64,000 bases of DNA from Peribolospora baueri (Eukaryota; Basidiomycota; Peribolosporomycetes; Peribolosporales; Peribolosporaceae): positions 1 through 64,000 of the forward strand of contig JAMDHS010000073.1 in NCBI GenBank assembly GCA_029717555.1, in the 5' to 3' direction. The translations under genes and the position numbers were made by a program. The notes beneath the pieces were generated by a model. It was not told the origin of the DNA. It did not search any database and worked only from the letters and a program-made list of their open reading frames with translations. Every line of letters starts with the position of its first letter. Position 1 is the stretch's first letter. Shown piece by piece: positions 48,491-64,000 of this stretch.

Positions 48491-49633
48491 GGTGGACGTG
48501 GTGCGACGAAAGAGCTCTCGAACTATTGGCCAAGGAGTGGCGACGTCAACGCTGGAAGATGGTGGAGGATAAGAAGGTGTGGGAAAAAAAAAGGAGAGGA
48601 GTAGAGGAGGTGGAAATGAAGAGGAGCACGACGATCCAAGGCAAAAAATCTTGCTCTTCCTCAGGTCATCCCAATCGACGGTTCAGCAGGACCGCGACGC
48701 GACATCGCGAGATCTGGCCTCGTGCCTTCAAATCTCGTCGAAGCAAGGCAAGGCCCGATCAGCGCTGGCCCGACGGTCGGCCTACGTAAGGCCCCACTAG
48801 ACCTGAAATGTGTCAGAAGAAGATCAAGTGAGCTAAAAATGTGTTTTTCCACCTCTCTTCTCGCTGGCAGTCGAGAGAAAGAAAACCGAAGCATCGTCAT
48901 GTCCTATGGAGAAGAAACGGCGGGAAGACGTGGATGAGGAGAGAGGTGCGGAGGTGGCTCCGTCCTTCGAAGCGTCTAAAAATATGAACATCTGGGCTAG
49001 CCTGACGAGCGGAGCCGGGGTGCAAAGATGGCGGGTGAGGAGAAAAGCGATGAGACCAGTGGTCTTCGGAATGATGCCAAGTCGGGTGGGAAGCCGCCGG
49101 CAGTGTCGAGTCTCACATTGCCTGTCACGTGCACGTCGGCTAAGGCTGGCCTACAACCTCCGCACATCATCACCTGCTTCAGCCCAAGTCTCGACGATGG
49201 AGTCAGTGTTAAGGACAAGGTGAGCAGCATGCAAGTGCACCCCTCGTTGGTGGTAGTCGAGACGACGCCGCCAGCCCCGTTTATGGCCGCTTAATCCCGC
49301 GACCGGGCGGGCGACAAGATCCGAGCCAGCCGACACCGCCACGCACGGCCGTCGCCGAGATTGCGGTTGCGAACGTTGGACGACGTGCAAGTAATTGCAA
49401 GTGCATATGGACGTGCAGATCTGACTCGTGTTCGTGCTTTTCCAGCTGCCGAGAAGTGGAGGGACAGAGGGGGCTACATAAGGGCTGCTGCTTCTTCCGC
49501 TCACTCGTTCCCCCCTCACGCATGTCGACCGACCTGTCCAGGCATTACTCCGCAGGTCGGCCGTCGTCTCACGTCCCTCTCTACCTATCCTTGTTCTCCC
49601 ATCTTCGTTCGACCACCGACGAGAAGAGCCAGA
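48491..49633. other. Divergent intergenic region, protease / FAD monooxygenase
   Basis: Holds both promoters. An 88-codon open frame with a good ATG context (49028-49294) is followed by a GTGAGC at 49228, but it matches no family I know. It could be a short peptide or leader exon. Confidence 0.45.
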
Positions 49634-50926
49634 ATGGTAGCTCACAGCGCTCAAGTGACGATCGTCGGCGCCGGTCTTGGCGGCCTCACCCTCGCACGCG
49701 TCCTGCAGCGCCGGGGCGTGCCCGTCGCGATCTACGAGCGCGAGCGCTCAGCCTCGACGCGCGACCAGGGCGGCACGCTGGACATGCACGCCGAGACGGG
49801 CCAGGAGGCGCTGCGCAAGGCGGGCCTATACGACCGCTTCGAGGAACTGTGCAGTCGCGAGGCGGACCACATGCGAATCCTCGACAAGACCGGCGCCGTT
49901 CGATTCGAGGACGGCGGTGGCGGTGGTGGTGGTGGTGGTGGTTCGGACGCAGGCCAGGGACGGGGACCCGAGTTCGACCGGCCGGAAGTGGATCGCGGCG
50001 CACTTCGCAAGGTTCTCCTCGATTCTCTCCTTCCCGACACGGTCGCCTGGGGTCGTGCCTGCCGTAGCGTGGAGGAGGTCGAGGAAGGGCGAGGCGGGGC
50101 GGCGGCGGGGCGGACGTACGCGCTGAAGTTCGCCGACGGCCAGACCGAGGTAGTGAACGGCTTGCTGGTCGGCGCCGACGGCGCCTGGTCCAAGGTCAGG
50201 CCGCTCGTGTCGGAGGCCAAGCCGGCCTACTCGGGCGTGACGTTCGTGGAGCTGTCACTGAGCCAAGTGGAGGAGCGGCGGCCGGAGGTGGCGGCGCTGA
50301 TCGGGAGCGGGAGCATGTTCGCTCTGGGGGAGAACAAGGGGCTGATCGCGCAACGCAACTCGGGCGACCAGGCGCGCGTCTACGTGACGCTCCGCGTCCC
50401 GCTCGACTGGCACGAACACTCGGGCATCGCCGTCGGCGGCGCGGACGAGACGCGCGACCGATTGTGCGCCCTCTTCGCCGGCTGGAGTCGATCGCTGTTG
50501 GAGCTCATTCGGCAGGCGGACGACAGCCGGGGCATCGTCCCGAGGCCGCTGTTCGCCCTTCCCGTCGACCACGCTTGGCCGACGCGCGCGGGGGTGACGC
50601 TCTTGGGCGACGCGGCGCACCTCATGACGCCCTTCGCTGGCGAGGGCGCCAACCTGGCCATGATCGACGGCGCAGAGCTGGGCGAGGCGATCGCCTCCGC
50701 GTGGCGCCGACCTGATGTTACTGTTGATGACGATGGTGATGGCGACAACGCAGCGCTCACGGACGCAGTGAGCGCATTCGAAGCTCGCATGTTCGAGCGC
50801 GCCTCGAAGGCGGCCAAAGAGTCAGCGTCGAACCTGGACGTGTTCGTCAGCGACGACGCCCCGGACGGCGCCGTCGAGCGGATGAACTGGCTCATGAGCC
50901 AAGCTGGTCCGCCCTCGCCCCAATGA
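49634..50926 (+). CDS. TetX-like FAD-dependent monooxygenase
   Basis: A single 430-residue exon. The flavin motifs are complete: dinucleotide fold VTIVGAGLGGLTLARVLQRR, substrate/FAD loop DQGGTLDMHAETGQEALRKA, DG motif GLLVGADGAWSKVRPLV, and GD motif GVTLLGDAAHLMTPFAGEGA. The block order and DRGALRKVLLDSLLPDTV match the TetX/aromatic-hydroxylase branch of class A flavoprotein monooxygenases, which hydroxylate small aromatic or polyketide-like substrates with NAD(P)H and oxygen. A polyGly run of about ten residues, from GGT repeats at 49914-49942, sits where TetX has a short loop. No signal peptide; probably cytosolic. The lack of introns beside intron-rich neighbours and the bacterial-like family are compatible with old horizontal transfer but do not prove it. 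Confidence 0.88.
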   Translation: MVAHSAQVTIVGAGLGGLTLARVLQRRGVPVAIYERERSASTRDQGGTLDMHAETGQEALRKAGLYDRFEELCSREADHMRILDKTGAVRFEDGGGGGGGGGGSDAGQGRGPEFDRPEVDRGALRKVLLDSLLPDTVAWGRACRSVEEVEEGRGGAAAGRTYALKFADGQTEVVNGLLVGADGAWSKVRPLVSEAKPAYSGVTFVELSLSQVEERRPEVAALIGSGSMFALGENKGLIAQRNSGDQARVYVTLRVPLDWHEHSGIAVGGADETRDRLCALFAGWSRSLLELIRQADDSRGIVPRPLFALPVDHAWPTRAGVTLLGDAAHLMTPFAGEGANLAMIDGAELGEAIASAWRRPDVTVDDDGDGDNAALTDAVSAFEARMFERASKAAKESASNLDVFVSDDAPDGAVERMNWLMSQAGPPSPQ

Positions 50927-58328: not shown

Positions 58329-59956
58329 TCGGCATCCCAACCAACCCAACCTCGCTTGCGTCCTTCGCGCCGTCCCCTTCCCACACCGGCACCGGTCTCA
58401 TCTTCTCTCGTTCGTTTTCATCGTTATTCGAGCCGGTCATGCCCCTCCCTTTGCGCTTGCGCCTTCAACATCCCCTCCCACCTAGATGCTCGTCCACTCT
58501 CTTCGTCGCTCCCTCGCACGTGCCCGTCCGTCCGTCCGTCCAACCAAGCCAGCCAAGCCAAGCCAGCTTACCAACTTGCCAGCCAGCTAGCCAGCCAGGC
58601 GCCCTATACCCTGACACACATCGGCCGAACAAATTTTCCTCTCTTTTCCCCGCCATCCATCTTCCTTTTTTTGCCTCTTTTTTTTTTTTTTTTTTCTTCC
58701 CTTCCCGAGACATAGTCCGGACCCTTGCGTCGTCGACTCGCTTCTCGTACCCATTATCGGGCCCCCGACGTTCTCCCGCCTCGTTTCCCCTACGCCGACG
58801 GCCCAAGCGGCCCGGCCCGAGCCCGAGCGGGTGTCTATCTATCTCTTGGCGTCTTATTAGCCCCCTTTCTTTCTATGTTCTGCGCTTCTAGTGACGAGAC
58901 GGATCGTTTACCCCGATTCGGTGATCCCCTTCGTTTCGTTCTCGGCACGGACTAGATCTGTCCTTTTCCTTCTTCCTTCTTGTTCCTTCTTGGCTCGTGT
59001 TCATATTTTCCTCGTTCGCTAAACTTCTTTGCCCCTCTTTTGCGCGCATAACAAAACCGTCTTTCCTTTTTTTTGTCTTTTCTTTGTTTCATCCTCGCTT
59101 CGCTTCTAACCCCGATCGATCGATTCCTTCCATTCCCCTCGTTCGTTGCCCACATACGCGTGCTTCGATGCCCCTCCTTCGTCACAAACCCGCACCGAAC
59201 CCGTCTCTCGTCCACACCGTCCTTTTTCTTTCCTTTCCTCTTATTTTTTTTATCCTTTTTCTTCTTCTTCGTCTTCGGTCGGCCAGCCCGACCTTTGGCA
59301 TTCCTTCTCTCGACCCTTTGGACACTTTGGGACGAGGAGCAGCAGCAGCAACAACAACAACGGCAGCGCCATCCCTCATTCGGAGCGCAAGCAAGCGTCT
59401 GTTCTTCTTTTCTCCCGCTTTCGCCTCGCTTCGGCTTTGTCGTCGCTTCCCTTCTTCTTCTTCCGTCCAGAGTGTTTCTTTTCTTCCCTCCTTGCTCGTT
59501 CGTCCCCCCACGCGCTTCGTCCCTCCATCCGTCTATCCCACCGTCCCTTCCACCGTCCGTACCCCTCTTCGGTTCCTCCGTCGGGTCCCGTGTCGTTTTG
59601 TCGTTCAGCCTGTCGTCGTCGGACTTTTTGGATGAGATGAATCAAGGGCCGACTGATCGATCGTGATCGTGTGCCTGCTTGTCTGTCTGTCTCTGTCTGC
59701 CCCGTCTAGTCGCCCTCTCGGGCTGGCCGAGGCTCGAGCGAGCGAGCGGATGGCTGGCCGATCGGACCCCGATCGCGGCGTCGCGCGGTGGGCAGGTCGC
59801 GCGTTATCTCGGTTGGGCCGATGCGGTGGTCGCCGTGATGGTGGTGGTGGTCGTCGTCGTCGTCGTCGCCGGTCGTGTGGATATATACATACTGACTGAC
59901 TGTCTGACTCCCTCCACTCCCTCCACCTCCATAACCACCCCACCCACCCGCTCACC
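58329..59956. other. Intergenic stretch, SMI1 3' end to xanthine dioxygenase promoter
   Basis: T-rich and CT-rich with several long T runs (58671-58696, 59240-59275). Overlapping open frames near 58997-59666 are Phe/Ser/Pro compositional artefacts. The last 150 bases form the xanthine dioxygenase promoter. Confidence 0.6.
59804..59887 (+). promoter_or_regulatory. Xanthine dioxygenase promoter: GATA site, near-palindrome and TATA
   Basis: TTATCT (AGATAA on the other strand, a HGATAR site) at 59804-59809 overlaps TCGG-N5-CCGA at 59809-59821. That is one base short of the TCGG-N6-CCGA spacing described for the purine activator UaY. ATATATA at 59881-59887 lies about 75 bases before the ATG. Confidence 0.45.
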
Positions 59957-61967
59957 ATGTCCTCGCTCACCTTCGAACCCCTCCCCGCCTCCGCTATCCC
60001 CGGCGCACCCTCCCCGCGGCGCGACCCGAACTTTGGGCGCATCGTCCGTGGCGTCGACCTGGCCAACCTATCCGACGACCAGCTCGAACAAGTCAAGCAC
60101 GCCCTCTACACTCACTCCCTCCTCCTCTTCCCCGCCACCAAGCTTGAGCCCGACGCACAGTACCGCTTGACCAAGGTCCGTACAGTCCCAGTCCTCACCC
60201 CCGCTCTGTGATGACCGCCGACGCCCCCTCGGCTGATCCTTTCTTCACCGCCCTTCGTCTCCTCGGCGTATCGTATCGAATCGTATCGCATCGTTACGAC
60301 GCCCGACCCGCCCTCAGGCTTTTGACGTGAGTCGCTGTCGAACCCTCCGTCGCCAAGGACGAGGACAAGACGAGACGGCAAGACACTCAGACTCGCTTTC
60401 TTCCACCCCTCGCCGCCTCGCAGCCGACGTCCGAGTCCTACGGCCACGGCAACAACGGCCGCCAAGAAAAATCCGTCCTCCACCCCGACCTCAAGACCAT
60501 CCCCGCCGTGCCCCAGGTCCAGCTCATCGGCAACGGCCTTGTCCAGAGCCACTACGGTCTCCAAGGCGCACAGCTCAAGCACCCGCATCACAAGACTTTT
60601 CACAAAACACACGTCTCCGATGACGACGAGGCCCGTGGGTTCACGAGGTGCGAGAGCGGCATGCCCTCGTTTCATACGCCTCCTCCTCTGTCCTCCGTCC
60701 CGCTCCGTCGCTGACTCGGTCTCCTTCCGCCTCGCCTCGCCTCCGTCCCAAAGATTCTACCGCTGGGTACGTTTTCGTCTCCTACCTCGCCCTCGCCCTC
60801 GCTCGTTCGCTCACACAGACGACCTTTTGTTTCCCCGCAGCACATCGACGCCGCTCTGTACAAACTCTCCCCTCCGCGCGTCACGACGCTGTATGCGCTC
60901 AAGGTGCCCAAGGGAGCGCCTCAGATGGTGAGGTGAGTAAATGCGCTGAACGTACCGAAGGGTCATACGATTCGAGAGGGCGTGCACGAAAACGCTCACC
61001 GCCACCTTGCGCTCGGCCCTAGATACGACGACGGCACCGGCGACGAGCTCCCCGTCCCCCTGGGTACGACAGCGTGTGAGTGCGCGAGTCTCCCGACCGC
61101 TGCGTTTACGCCAGTGTCGACCACCGACCGACCTGGATTGCCTCTCTCTTCTACAGTCGTTTCGGGCGCGACCATGTTCGACCGCCTCTCTCCGGCTGAA
61201 AAGTCGCTGGCGGTGCGGACGACAGTGCGGTATGCGCCTCATCCGTACGTCTGGATGGGCCCCGCACGATCCAAGCCCACGGGTCTCGGCTTGGAGGACG
61301 AAGGGAGGGAGATGAGCTTGGAGGACTTGCCGGAGTGGCGGGAGGACGAGGTGAAGCAACTTCCCATGGTGAGCCGTCGCCGCGGGAATGGAGAGCGACG
61401 GGGGGCGGAGGCGGATATTCAGACGTTCAGATTCACTCACCCGTCCCCGCCTTGGCCTTGGCCCCCACTCGCAGTTGTGGACGAACCCGGTGACGGGCCG
61501 TCTGCACTTCCAGGTCCACCCCTCGGCGGTACAAGAGCTCATCATCGACTCCATCGATGCCTCGGCCGGATCCAAGGTGCCCGAAGGCGAGCGGCTCTTC
61601 CCGCAAGGCGCGCACATCAAGGACCTGGCCGAGGTCAGGAAGATTGTGTACGAGTGAGTCGGTCGAACCGTCTCGTCTCGGCTTTGTTTCGTTCGTTCGT
61701 GGCCGTCGAGGTCGTGGTCGTCTCGTCTCATCGCCTCGTTCGCGGGCCTCTTCTGCCAGCCTCCAACGACCGGCAATCGACCCGTCGCTGGTGTACGCCC
61801 ACGATTGGGAAGAGGGCGACATGTGCCTCTTCCACAACCAGGGCGTCCTCCACTCTGTCGTGGGCGCCTTCAAGCCCGACGAGGTGCGCATGTTCCACCA
61901 GTGCAACCTGGCCGCCAGCGAGGACCCCAAGGGCCCGTCCGACGAGGACGTGAGCGCCTTTGCGTAG
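59957..61967 (+). CDS. xanA: Alpha-ketoglutarate-dependent xanthine dioxygenase (XanA type, TauD fold)
   Basis: Nine exons close in frame: 59957-60175, 60318-60326, 60424-60647, 60754-60766, 60841-60932, 61023-61075, 61157-61368, 61475-61653 and 61760-61967, for 402 residues. The core is a TauD-type dioxygenase with the Fe(II) facial triad: HIDAALY gives His-X-Asp and LFHNQGVLHSVVGAF the distal His, with 2-oxoglutarate-binding Arg candidates after it. Fungal XanA-like features include RRDPNFGRIVRGVDLANLSD, ESYGHGNN, LGTTAFVSGATMFDRL and VYAHDWEEGDMCLFHNQ. XanA converts xanthine, 2-oxoglutarate and O2 to urate, succinate and CO2. Exon 2 is 9 nt (AFD) and exon 4 is 13 nt (RFYRW). The neighbour, hydroxyisourate hydrolase, acts two steps later, which supports the purine role over other TauD relatives. 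Donor 1 is GTCCGT. Confidence 0.85.
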
Positions 61968-62354
61968 CGTAGCGTAGTAAGTAAGTTAAGTATGTATGTG
62001 TGTATGTGTGTATGTATGTATGTATGTAGTGCGCCTGTCCGTCCGTCGGTCTGTCCGTCTGTCCGTGGGTGGGTGCGGTGCGGAAACAAAAGCGTGCGTC
62101 GTCGCAAAACCTTTTCCTATTCCCATCGGTTTGTACTTTTTTTCCTCTTTTCTTTCCCGCCGCCTCCCGCGAACGTCTCCCTCCGACTCGTCTCGTCTCG
62201 TCTGTCTCGTCTCGTCTCGTCTGTCTCGTCTCGTATTTGTACGTCCGAAGAACCGGGCTTCACGCCCAAACAAACGACGGTCTGTGTTGCATGGTGCGCT
62301 AGCGTGGGCGAGACTTTACGAAATTTTCGTACGATCTTCCTTTCTAGCGGCCAG
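61968..62354. other. 3' region between convergent xanA and hydroxyisourate hydrolase
   Basis: Only a GTAT/GTATGT microsatellite (61990-62030), CCGTCTGT units and TCGTC repeats (62190-62232) are seen. The two genes converge on fewer than 400 bases. Confidence 0.65.
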
Positions 62355-63076
62355 TCATGACCCGCGATACTGGACGGAGAGAGGTGAGACGGGGGCGATG
62401 GTGCGCATGGATGGATGAGTGGATGAGCGTCCGCCGGCCGAGTTGGATGAAGAGAGAGGGAGCTCGAGAGCACTCACGGTGGTGTAAGAGTGGTTGGAGA
62501 GCAGCAGAGGGATGTGGTAGTGCGCGTCCGGCGGGTCTTGGACGGTGAAATAGATCTGGCGGGAGCGAAGTGGAAGGACGTTTGTTTGTCTGTCTCTGTC
62601 TTTCTGTCTTGTCTGTCTATCTATCTGTCTTGTGTCTTGACGACGGATATGCGCCGGTCAGCCCGCGCTTTAGTTTTGCTCACCTCGACAAAGGGAAAAA
62701 AGGTAGGCCTCGCCTTCCGGTCAAAGTAGTCGCCCGTCTCGAACCTCATCTTGTACACGCCCGGCTCGAGGACGTGCGTTAGCGAGAGAAGGTTCGTTGC
62801 TCGGCCGTCTGAGTCGGTCTCCCTGTTGTCGTGTCGCGGCCGTGGCGGTGAGAAAGGGAAAGAGAAGAGGAAAATCTTTCTTTCTTTCTTTCTTTCTTTC
62901 ACTCACCCCTCGGCCACCGTCGCAAACGCCACTCCCTGCCCCTGCCCCTGCTGCCGCTCCAGGCGGACGGAGACGCCGTCGCCCGGCTTGCCCTCGGTGG
63001 CGTCCAGGACGTGGCAGGTGATGGGCGACTTGTGCGGCCGCGCGGTCATGGTCGTCGTCGTCGTCGTCGTGGTCAT
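62355..63076 (-). CDS. 5-hydroxyisourate hydrolase (transthyretin-like)
   Basis: Exons 62907-63076, 62684-62822, 62478-62555 and 62355-62369 give 133 residues. The protein shows the family blocks SPITCHVLDATEGKPGDGVS (His of the active site), TDSDGRATNLL, YKMRFETGDYFDRKARPTFF, PFVEIYFTV, AHYHIPLLLSNHSYTT and the C-terminal tetrapeptide YRGS, the signature that separates the hydrolase from transthyretin hormone carriers. The last exon has 15 nt and encodes only YRGS and the stop. The enzyme turns 5-hydroxyisourate into OHCU in the urate-to-allantoin route. No PTS1 is present, so it is probably cytosolic. Two Mets are possible; the first (63076) adds nine residues, eight of them Thr, before MTARPHK (63049). 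Intron 1 has a TTTC run at its start. Confidence 0.93.
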
Positions 63077-63824
63077 CGTCGTCGGTCTGGTGCTGAGCGG
63101 CGACGAGACGGAGATGGAGACGGGAACGACCGACGACGGTGGGTTATCGGTTATCGGTTATCTCCGCCGGAGATGCCTCGGTCGAGCCGAGGCGATAAAA
63201 TAGAGTCGCACGGGAGCGGACGGCGATCACGAACGCCGGCGGCCGTGTTTGTGTCGCACGACGGACAGGTTGGTGCTCCTCCTCCTTCTCCCTCAGCAGC
63301 CCTCGTCGCTCCTCACTCGCACTCGCACTCGCACCCACCCACTCGGGCCTGCAAGAGAACAAAGAACAACTGTTCGAGCTCATGTCGCCCCCCCTTCAGC
63401 ACTCGGCCGCCTCTGTCGCGGATGCTTCGCGGCGAGCGGGCCAGCGATAAGACCAGCCAGCCAGCCAGCCCCAGCCAGCCCGTCACCGCGCCCGGTCTTC
63501 TTATCTCGCATCTTCGCCCTCTCTAGCGTCGCCTCGCTCAGGAACAATCTATCACCGCTCACCGTCGTCCATGACAGGAGACGACGGATGGAGGAGCGGC
63601 GGATCGCTCCAGGACGGCGCGGCGCGGCGCGGTTCGGACGGCGGCCAACGACTCCCTCTTCACCTTCGTCCCTCCTCCACCGCTGACACCGTTCCCTCTT
63701 TTCCTCCTGCTTCACCTCCCCCTCATCGTCGCTCCAACGCCGTTGTCTATAGCGCGGCTAGCAAAGTGCAGTGACTTGACGGACGGACGGACGGACGGAC
63801 AGGGACCCCGGTGCACGAGCGCCC
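63077..63824. other. Divergent region between hydroxyisourate hydrolase and the last gene
   Basis: Besides the cluster at 63121-63166 it holds CGATAA (63193-63198), CGATAAG (63445-63451) and TTATCT (63501-63506), CCAG tracts (63451-63480) and GGAC units (63779-63800). No coding frame is supported. Confidence 0.6.
63121..63166 (-). promoter_or_regulatory. GATA triplet and two CGG-N6-CCG palindromes upstream of the hydrolase
   Basis: TTATC (GATAA on the gene strand) occurs at 63144, 63151 and 63158, spaced exactly 7 bases. CGG-N6-CCG occurs at 63121-63132 (followed by A) and at 63155-63166 (preceded by T); the second overlaps the last GATA site. The centre is about 45-90 bases upstream of the ATG at 63076. 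HGATAR is the AreA target and TCGG-N6-CCGA the UaY purine-inducer target in Aspergillus; these are close matches. Confidence 0.6.
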
Positions 63825-64000
63825 ATGGCAACCGTCTTCCCCGAAAAGGCCGACGTGGCGTCCTCGCACATCGTCACCGTCGAGCCCAGTCACACCGCCC
63901 CGCCCTCACCCACCCGACCTGGCTCCGAGGACAACGACGGCGACGACACGCGAAGCCGCCATGCCGCTTCGCCCTCGCCAGATTTGCCCCCCGGCTTACG
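63825..64000 (+). CDS. Start of an unidentified gene, cut by the window edge
   Basis: An open frame of 58 codons begins MATVFPEKADVASSHIVTVE and is still open at the last base, reading SPDLPPGLR. The visible part is a hydrophilic, Pro/Asp-rich N-terminus as found in cytosolic tails of fungal transporters, but no domain is visible. It is divergent from the hydroxyisourate hydrolase and has GATA sites upstream, so a purine or other nitrogen-compound permease would fit; this is context inference only. Confidence 0.5.
   Translation, partial: MATVFPEKADVASSHIVTVEPSHTAPPSPTRPGSEDNDGDDTRSRHAASPSPDLPPGL

Follow-up and report, generated by a model that had tools for sequence, protein, structure and literature searches.

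The DNA considered in this study, hereafter the window, is a stretch of 64,000 nucleotides from the basidiomycete Peribolospora baueri (positions 1 to 64,000 of contig JAMDHS010000073.1, assembly GCA_029717555.1). Its right-hand end carries three neighboring genes of purine utilization: a xanA-like gene for a xanthine dioxygenase, a gene for 5-hydroxyisourate hydrolase, and the beginning of a gene for a urate/xanthine permease of the UapA type. The initial annotation of the window had read the first two as a convergent pair in a small purine cluster, with perhaps a third member beyond 63825. Both genes lie where it placed them, the dioxygenase on the forward strand and the hydrolase on the reverse strand, convergent and 387 bases apart, and the third member is the permease, which reads forward and divergently from the hydrolase; it extends from 63825, where its first exon begins, to 67063. 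Three adjacent, non-homologous genes of one pathway are enough to constitute a fungal metabolic gene cluster, for which at least three are asked. The genes and the promoter between the last two are as follows.

59957..61967, + strand: xanA-like Fe(II)/2-oxoglutarate xanthine dioxygenase gene, 402 amino acids, 9 exons, spliced frame (exons 59957-60175, 60318-60326, 60424-60647, 60754-60766, 60841-60932, 61023-61075, 61157-61368, 61475-61653, and 61760-61967, the last including the stop)
62355..63049, - strand: 5-hydroxyisourate hydrolase gene, 124 amino acids, 4 exons, splicing checked by script (exons 62907-63049, 62684-62822, 62478-62555, and 62355-62369, the last including the stop)
63050..63824, no strand: divergent promoter common to hydrolase and permease, the interval between both ATGs
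63825..64000 in the window, + strand: start of the UapA-type urate/xanthine permease gene, which continues to 67063 on the same contig

The dioxygenase gene forms a single open frame from the ATG at 59957 to the stop codon ending at 61967, with GT-AG borders at all eight introns. Its product matches one Pfam family alone, TauD (PF02668; 113.5 bits over residues 24-382, cut-off 27), and so has the TauD/TfdA fold expected of XanA. The metal triad HxD...H is present as H156-I-D158 and H365, the distal histidine being assigned by the family pattern, in agreement with the initial reading of a TauD-fold xanthine dioxygenase with HXD...H. The motif HQCN follows the metal ligands at residues 380-383. 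Q107/Q109 and Q381-C382-N383 may correspond, at steady offsets, to the substrate-site residues Q99/Q101 and Q356-C357-N358 of Aspergillus nidulans XanA. The best matches amongst PDB sequences are distant: a putative 2,4-D dioxygenase (E-value 1.6e-5), then taurine-type and similar enzymes at 0.04 and worse. Identity as a taurine dioxygenase was rejected, the NCBIfam equivalog giving 30 bits vs. a cut-off of 313, and the equivalogs of other TauD-family enzymes likewise score the protein far below their cut-offs. The whole assembly (22,138,560 bases in 178 contigs) was searched exon by exon. The xanA-like gene is single in it, the dioxygenase query retrieving itself alone, and the TauD family as a whole gives 10 exon-level matches, other TauD-family genes among them. 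No close bacterial or archaeal relative was found: of 20 pattern matches two loci were confirmed, and at 26-27% identity over part of the protein these are too distant to be informative.

The hydrolase runs from the ATG at 63049 to a stop codon ending at 62355, with GT-AG borders at all three introns; an alternative in-frame ATG lies at 63076, the end of the interval given in the initial annotation. The protein passes the NCBIfam equivalog TIGR02962 for its family (131.5 bits vs. a cut-off of 87.45) and scores 126.9 bits against PF00576. Its C-terminus is HYHIPLLLSNHSYTTYRGS, with the YRGS ending on which the initial identification rested, and a solved 5-hydroxyisourate (HIU) hydrolase (PDB 2h1x) aligns through that end with an E-value of 2.3e-25. 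The gene is single in the assembly, both PF00576 matches being its own exons.

The permease model (63825-67063, + strand) exceeds the end of the window and comprises 13 exons, 12 GT-AG introns, and 620 amino acids. The borders of two introns (64115-64185 and 66022-66115) are weak, which makes a few residues there uncertain. Alignment to 31ew, a solved uric acid-xanthine permease, gives an E-value of 1.3e-161 with identity at 264 of 516 aligned positions, and the structure 5i6c, that of UapA, scores nearly as well. The nucleobase-ascorbate transporter (NAT) family is characterized by Gln-His in transmembrane segment (TMS) 1, Glu-X-X-Gly-Asp in TMS8, and Gln-Asn-X-Gly-X4-Thr-Arg/Lys/Gly in TMS10 (PMC5972032). 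The permease has LQH in TMS1 (as LQHALAML), EAIGD in TMS8, and FAQNNGVIALSR. It too is single in the assembly, all four PF00860 matches falling inside the gene.

The initial annotation had proposed, as a check, that the contig be extended to the right in search of further purine genes. The extension yielded the permease; urate oxidase, OHCU decarboxylase, and allantoinase were located on other contigs instead. Urate oxidase, which that annotation had already placed outside the window, lies at 82 kb on contig C178, where all three of its exon matches fall. OHCU decarboxylase is on contig C25, and allantoinase is on contig C22 (its best exon scores 218 bits, and 357.85, the cut-off for a complete protein, is beyond the reach of single exons). 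Allantoicase and ureidoglycolate lyase lie together on C178, at 348-350 kb. The last exons of these two join across one GT-AG intron into a single frame containing both Pfam families (a fused DAL2-DAL3 frame at 347.8-348.6 kb, - strand, with PF03561 positions 101-154 followed by PF04115 positions 4-99), with one lyase module as far as seen; such a fusion has been reported from Basidiomycota only (PMC3646786), and it is the one feature of the sequence that bears out the basidiomycete origin supposed by the initial annotation.

I found no xanthine dehydrogenase, either as a match to PF02738 (the molybdenum-binding domain) or to TIGR02963, in this search by exons of an assembly that may be incomplete. 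PF02738 is the better test of the two, TIGR02963 being modeled on a bacterial subunit. Because the xanA-like gene is single and no xanthine dehydrogenase was found, the dioxygenase is probably the sole route from xanthine to urate. The replacement of a lost molybdenum enzyme by one of XanA type is already known in basidiomycetes, and for Lepista sordida six candidate xanthine dioxygenases are described, xanthine oxidase being absent (PMC6458111). The initial annotation had conceded that the assignment of the dioxygenase to the pathway was partly contextual. That assignment now has more behind it than context, namely the failure to find a xanthine dehydrogenase and a promoter palindrome that the dioxygenase gene has in common with the genes for urate oxidase, allantoicase, and allantoinase.

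Any wider clustering of the pathway was rejected on a scan of 30 flanking open reading frames (ORFs), none of which matched a purine family. On the right, 20 of the 162 ORFs of at least 110 amino acids between 66000 and 105217 were scanned (the contig has 105,217 bases), and on the left, 10 out of 29 ORFs with 190 or more amino acids between 30000 and 58400; genes with short exons could escape such a scan. With the remaining pathway genes located on different contigs and the 30 scanned ORFs free of purine families, this is a three-gene cluster, not a cluster of the whole pathway.

The palindrome, CTCGG-N5-CCGAG, occurs in the window at the following positions.

59717..59731, no strand: strict CTCGG-N5-CCGAG copy, 225 bp ahead of the start codon of xanA
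59808..59822, no strand: CTCGG-N5-CCGAT, a near-match, 134 bp ahead of the start codon of xanA
63177..63191, no strand: strict CTCGG-N5-CCGAG copy in the common promoter, with the ATG of the hydrolase 127 bp away and that of the permease 633 bp away

There are five copies of the strict palindrome in 213 kb, and all of them lie 127-265 bp before purine genes: xanA, the hydrolase (a copy shared with the permease), urate oxidase, allantoicase, and allantoinase. Five of six purine genes, the permease not being counted separately, thus have it within 500 bp upstream. That the palindrome is shared by purine promoters is a new observation. When all 5-mer inverted repeats with gaps of 0 to 12 were counted in the six 500-bp promoters, every other repeat was confined to at most one of the six, and in 200 dinucleotide shuffles the maximum number of promoters sharing a repeat was one (179 times) or two (21 times). 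The palindrome again comes out on top with 4-mers (five of six promoters), but CGGC-N1-GCCG then reaches three of six, and short repeats are therefore less telling. Counting TCGG-Nk-CCGA in the 213 kb for spacings from 0 to 12, N5 is the most common (13 sites, the next spacing having 9), and four of the eight TCGG-N5-CCGA sites on contig C149 are in or beside the cluster promoters. The site of UaY, TCGG-N6-CCGA, is absent from the cluster promoters in the same count. A loose TCGG-N5-CCGA site is also seen at 59279 in the window, about 670 bp ahead of the start codon of xanA.

As the motif was derived from the cluster, the fair test is provided by the four genes on other contigs. In the 4 kb made up of 1 kb upstream of each there are three sites where 0.014 are expected (Poisson p 4.6e-7, or 6e-6 after multiplication by the 13 spacings tried). 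The distance from palindrome to ATG is 127 bp for the hydrolase, 129 for allantoicase, 136 for allantoinase, and 134 for the near-match of xanA, so that four genes have a strict site or, for xanA, the near-match at a distance of 127-136 bp; the distances are longer for the strict xanA site (225 bp), urate oxidase (265 bp), and the permease (633 bp). Genome-wide (22.14 Mb), there are 78 strict sites, vs. 45 for a reversed control (1.7x).

GATA sites of the form HGATAR are found near the palindromes, those at the cluster being:

59804..59809, - strand: HGATAR site overlapping the xanA near-match by two bases
63144..63163, - strand: three tandem HGATAR sites (63144, 63151, and 63158) beside the hydrolase/permease palindrome
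63193..63198, + strand: HGATAR site one base past that palindrome

Within 40 bp, four of the five purine palindromes have an HGATAR site, as compared to six of 49 others (Fisher p 0.003). The corresponding values are three of five vs. three of 49 within 30 bp (p 0.007), five of five vs. 10 of 49 within 100 bp (p 0.0009), and five of five vs. 19 of 49 within 180 bp (p 0.013). Some of the 49 non-purine sites, including the six with a GATA site within 40 bp, may be members of a regulon or may have arisen by chance. One GATA-linked palindrome, at position 150936 of C22 and 15 kb from allantoinase, sits inside a low-complexity open frame of 780 amino acids. No purine gene was recognized there, no family search having been made on the frame.

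Taken together, these observations make it quite likely that the three genes form a purine-utilization cluster covering entry into urate breakdown, switched together with most of the dispersed genes. The permease would import xanthine and urate. The dioxygenase, if of XanA type, would take the place of the molybdenum enzyme and form urate by hydroxylating xanthine, using Fe(II), 2-oxoglutarate, and O2; urate oxidase, whose gene is on a different contig, would convert urate to 5-hydroxyisourate, which the clustered hydrolase would turn into OHCU; and the products of the dispersed genes would complete the path to allantoin, allantoate, and urea. I read the palindrome as the site of a purine-specific activator, UaY-like but with a 5-base spacer. 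This putative activator, probably of the Zn2Cys6 class, would bind CTCGG-N5-CCGAG upon induction, and the GATA sites that often stand near it would carry nitrogen repression through a GATA factor. I lean, with less assurance, towards a larger view in which the entry cluster and the dispersed urate and allantoin genes belong to one basidiomycete purine regulon. The palindromic operator of this regulon would be CTCGG-N5-CCGAG near GATA sites, and relative to Aspergillus the spacing recognized by the regulator and the gene order would have changed and the logic been kept.

These conclusions must be weighed against other explanations. The dioxygenase might act on a sulfonate, an aryloxyacetate, or another substrate of the TauD family and stand beside the hydrolase by accident. 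TauD is indeed its only Pfam family, its closest PDB matches are the 2,4-D and taurine-type enzymes, the genome has other TauD-family genes, and XanA paralogues with other likely specificities have been reported (PMC5611559). This is nonetheless very improbable, given the failure of the taurine equivalog, the apparent fit of HQCN and of the metal-ligand spacing to XanA residues, the purine neighbors and the shared palindrome, and the fact that without this enzyme no means of making urate from xanthine was found in the assembly. It is also improbable, though not to the same degree, that the three genes are adjacent by chance and that their adjacency has no functional meaning. The dispersal of the other pathway genes would suit such a view, and three of those genes carry the palindrome without being neighbors, so that co-regulation evidently does not need clustering. 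But in random order only about 5e-6 runs of three neighbors would be expected (taking eight pathway genes, seven of them located, among about 8000, both numbers being assumed), and the divergent promoter between hydrolase and permease itself carries the palindrome and GATA sites.

Somewhat less unlikely, but still unlikely, is that the palindrome is a general promoter element or the site of a non-purine factor, present at purine genes by coincidence or as part of a nitrogen-wide signal. Its 78 genomic copies are no more than 1.7 times the control, 73 of them are outside the purine promoters examined, and the OHCU decarboxylase gene lacks it. In opposition to this, each of the five strict copies in the 213 kb precedes a purine gene by 127-265 bp, and the palindrome stands alone at the top of all 5-mer inverted repeats.

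Several further observations weigh against a cluster and regulon organized as I propose. The reading of the cluster rests on one genome, and the lack of a xanthine dehydrogenase carries the limits of the search given above. In the permease, the TMS10 sequence QNNGVIALSR fits the NAT motif except for Ser in place of Thr, and a weak splice donor directly precedes it. The N5 spacing was first spotted by eye in this very cluster. OHCU decarboxylase, although a core step, has no palindrome in its 500-bp promoter, and neither does the permease in its own 500 bp, its site being 633 bp off, on the hydrolase side of the common promoter. The strict xanA palindrome has no GATA site within 60 bp. The association of GATA sites with purine palindromes depends on distance, since within 20 bp it amounts to one of five vs. 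two of 49 (p 0.26), and the comparison covered 49 of the 73 non-purine sites. Finally, nadA of A. nidulans is bound by UaY and by AreA, a GATA factor, at sites 3 bp apart, and the nearness is described as likely steric interference (PMC8478523), so that the GATA effect here may be of either sign.

The proposed system may be compared with those already known. A. nidulans (xanA, uaX, uapA, uaZ, uaY, AreA) has the same enzymes and the same type of permease. It differs in the UaY spacing, N6 vs. N5 here. A. nidulans has in addition a xanthine dehydrogenase (PMC5746545), none having been found here. As the initial annotation had it, purine genes are dispersed in Aspergillus: none of 17 in A. nidulans is clustered with another (PMC5611559), whereas here three are adjacent. 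Cryptococcus neoformans (URO1, URO2, URO3, DAL1, DAL2,3,3) resembles P. baueri in a hydrolase ending in YRGS and in the allantoicase-ureidoglycolate lyase fusion, but the C. neoformans fusion has two lyase modules, vs. the one seen here, and its DAL homologues are described as unclustered apart from the fusion itself (PMC3646786). The DAL genes of Saccharomyces are likewise a fungal cluster for purine breakdown with a permease; they cover the allantoin half of the pathway and the present cluster the xanthine/urate half. In Bacillus subtilis, the puc cluster brings together urate transporters and pucM (PMC3646786), the latter a transthyretin-family hydrolase to judge from a title in the reference list of the same paper, but that cluster is bacterial and, unlike the one described here, includes pucL. 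Nearly all filamentous ascomycetes are reported to have UaY (PMC3998117). Among the literature matches listed, there was no account of a regulator of basidiomycete purine genes, nor of the three-gene arrangement, the latter being weak evidence in view of the many subscription journals, most of them, that such matches do not cover.

Purine breakdown is a standard example of a fungal pathway whose genes are scattered in Aspergillus, with only the allantoin half clustered in Saccharomyces. Clustering of the xanthine/urate half, in a fungus seemingly without xanthine dehydrogenase, adds another point to the question of why fungi cluster some pathways. Here, uptake is linked with an O2-dependent step and with the removal of an unstable intermediate. 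XanA of A. nidulans takes xanthine and not hypoxanthine (PMC5746545); if the dioxygenase likewise refuses hypoxanthine, then growth on xanthine and on urate, but none on hypoxanthine, would be expected of the fungus. The palindrome offers a concrete candidate operator for basidiomycete purine regulation and a route, from sequence, to the regulator and the remainder of the regulon.

The small purine cluster suggested by the initial annotation is thus a cluster of three genes with non-purine genes on both sides. To the left of the dioxygenase is an SMI1/KNR4 gene. To the right of the permease come sirohaem synthase, then a CDP-alcohol phosphatidyltransferase and a Sec7 protein, and farther on a gene of family GH63. 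The sirohaem synthase is of the Met8 type (domains NAD_binding_7, Sirohm_synth_M, and Sirohm_synth_C; L017:3258-4244, - strand), so that a function in nitrite/sulfite assimilation stands beside the purine cluster. Elsewhere in the window, at 49295-50923 on the + strand, is an open frame of 543 amino acids with an FAD_binding_3 domain.

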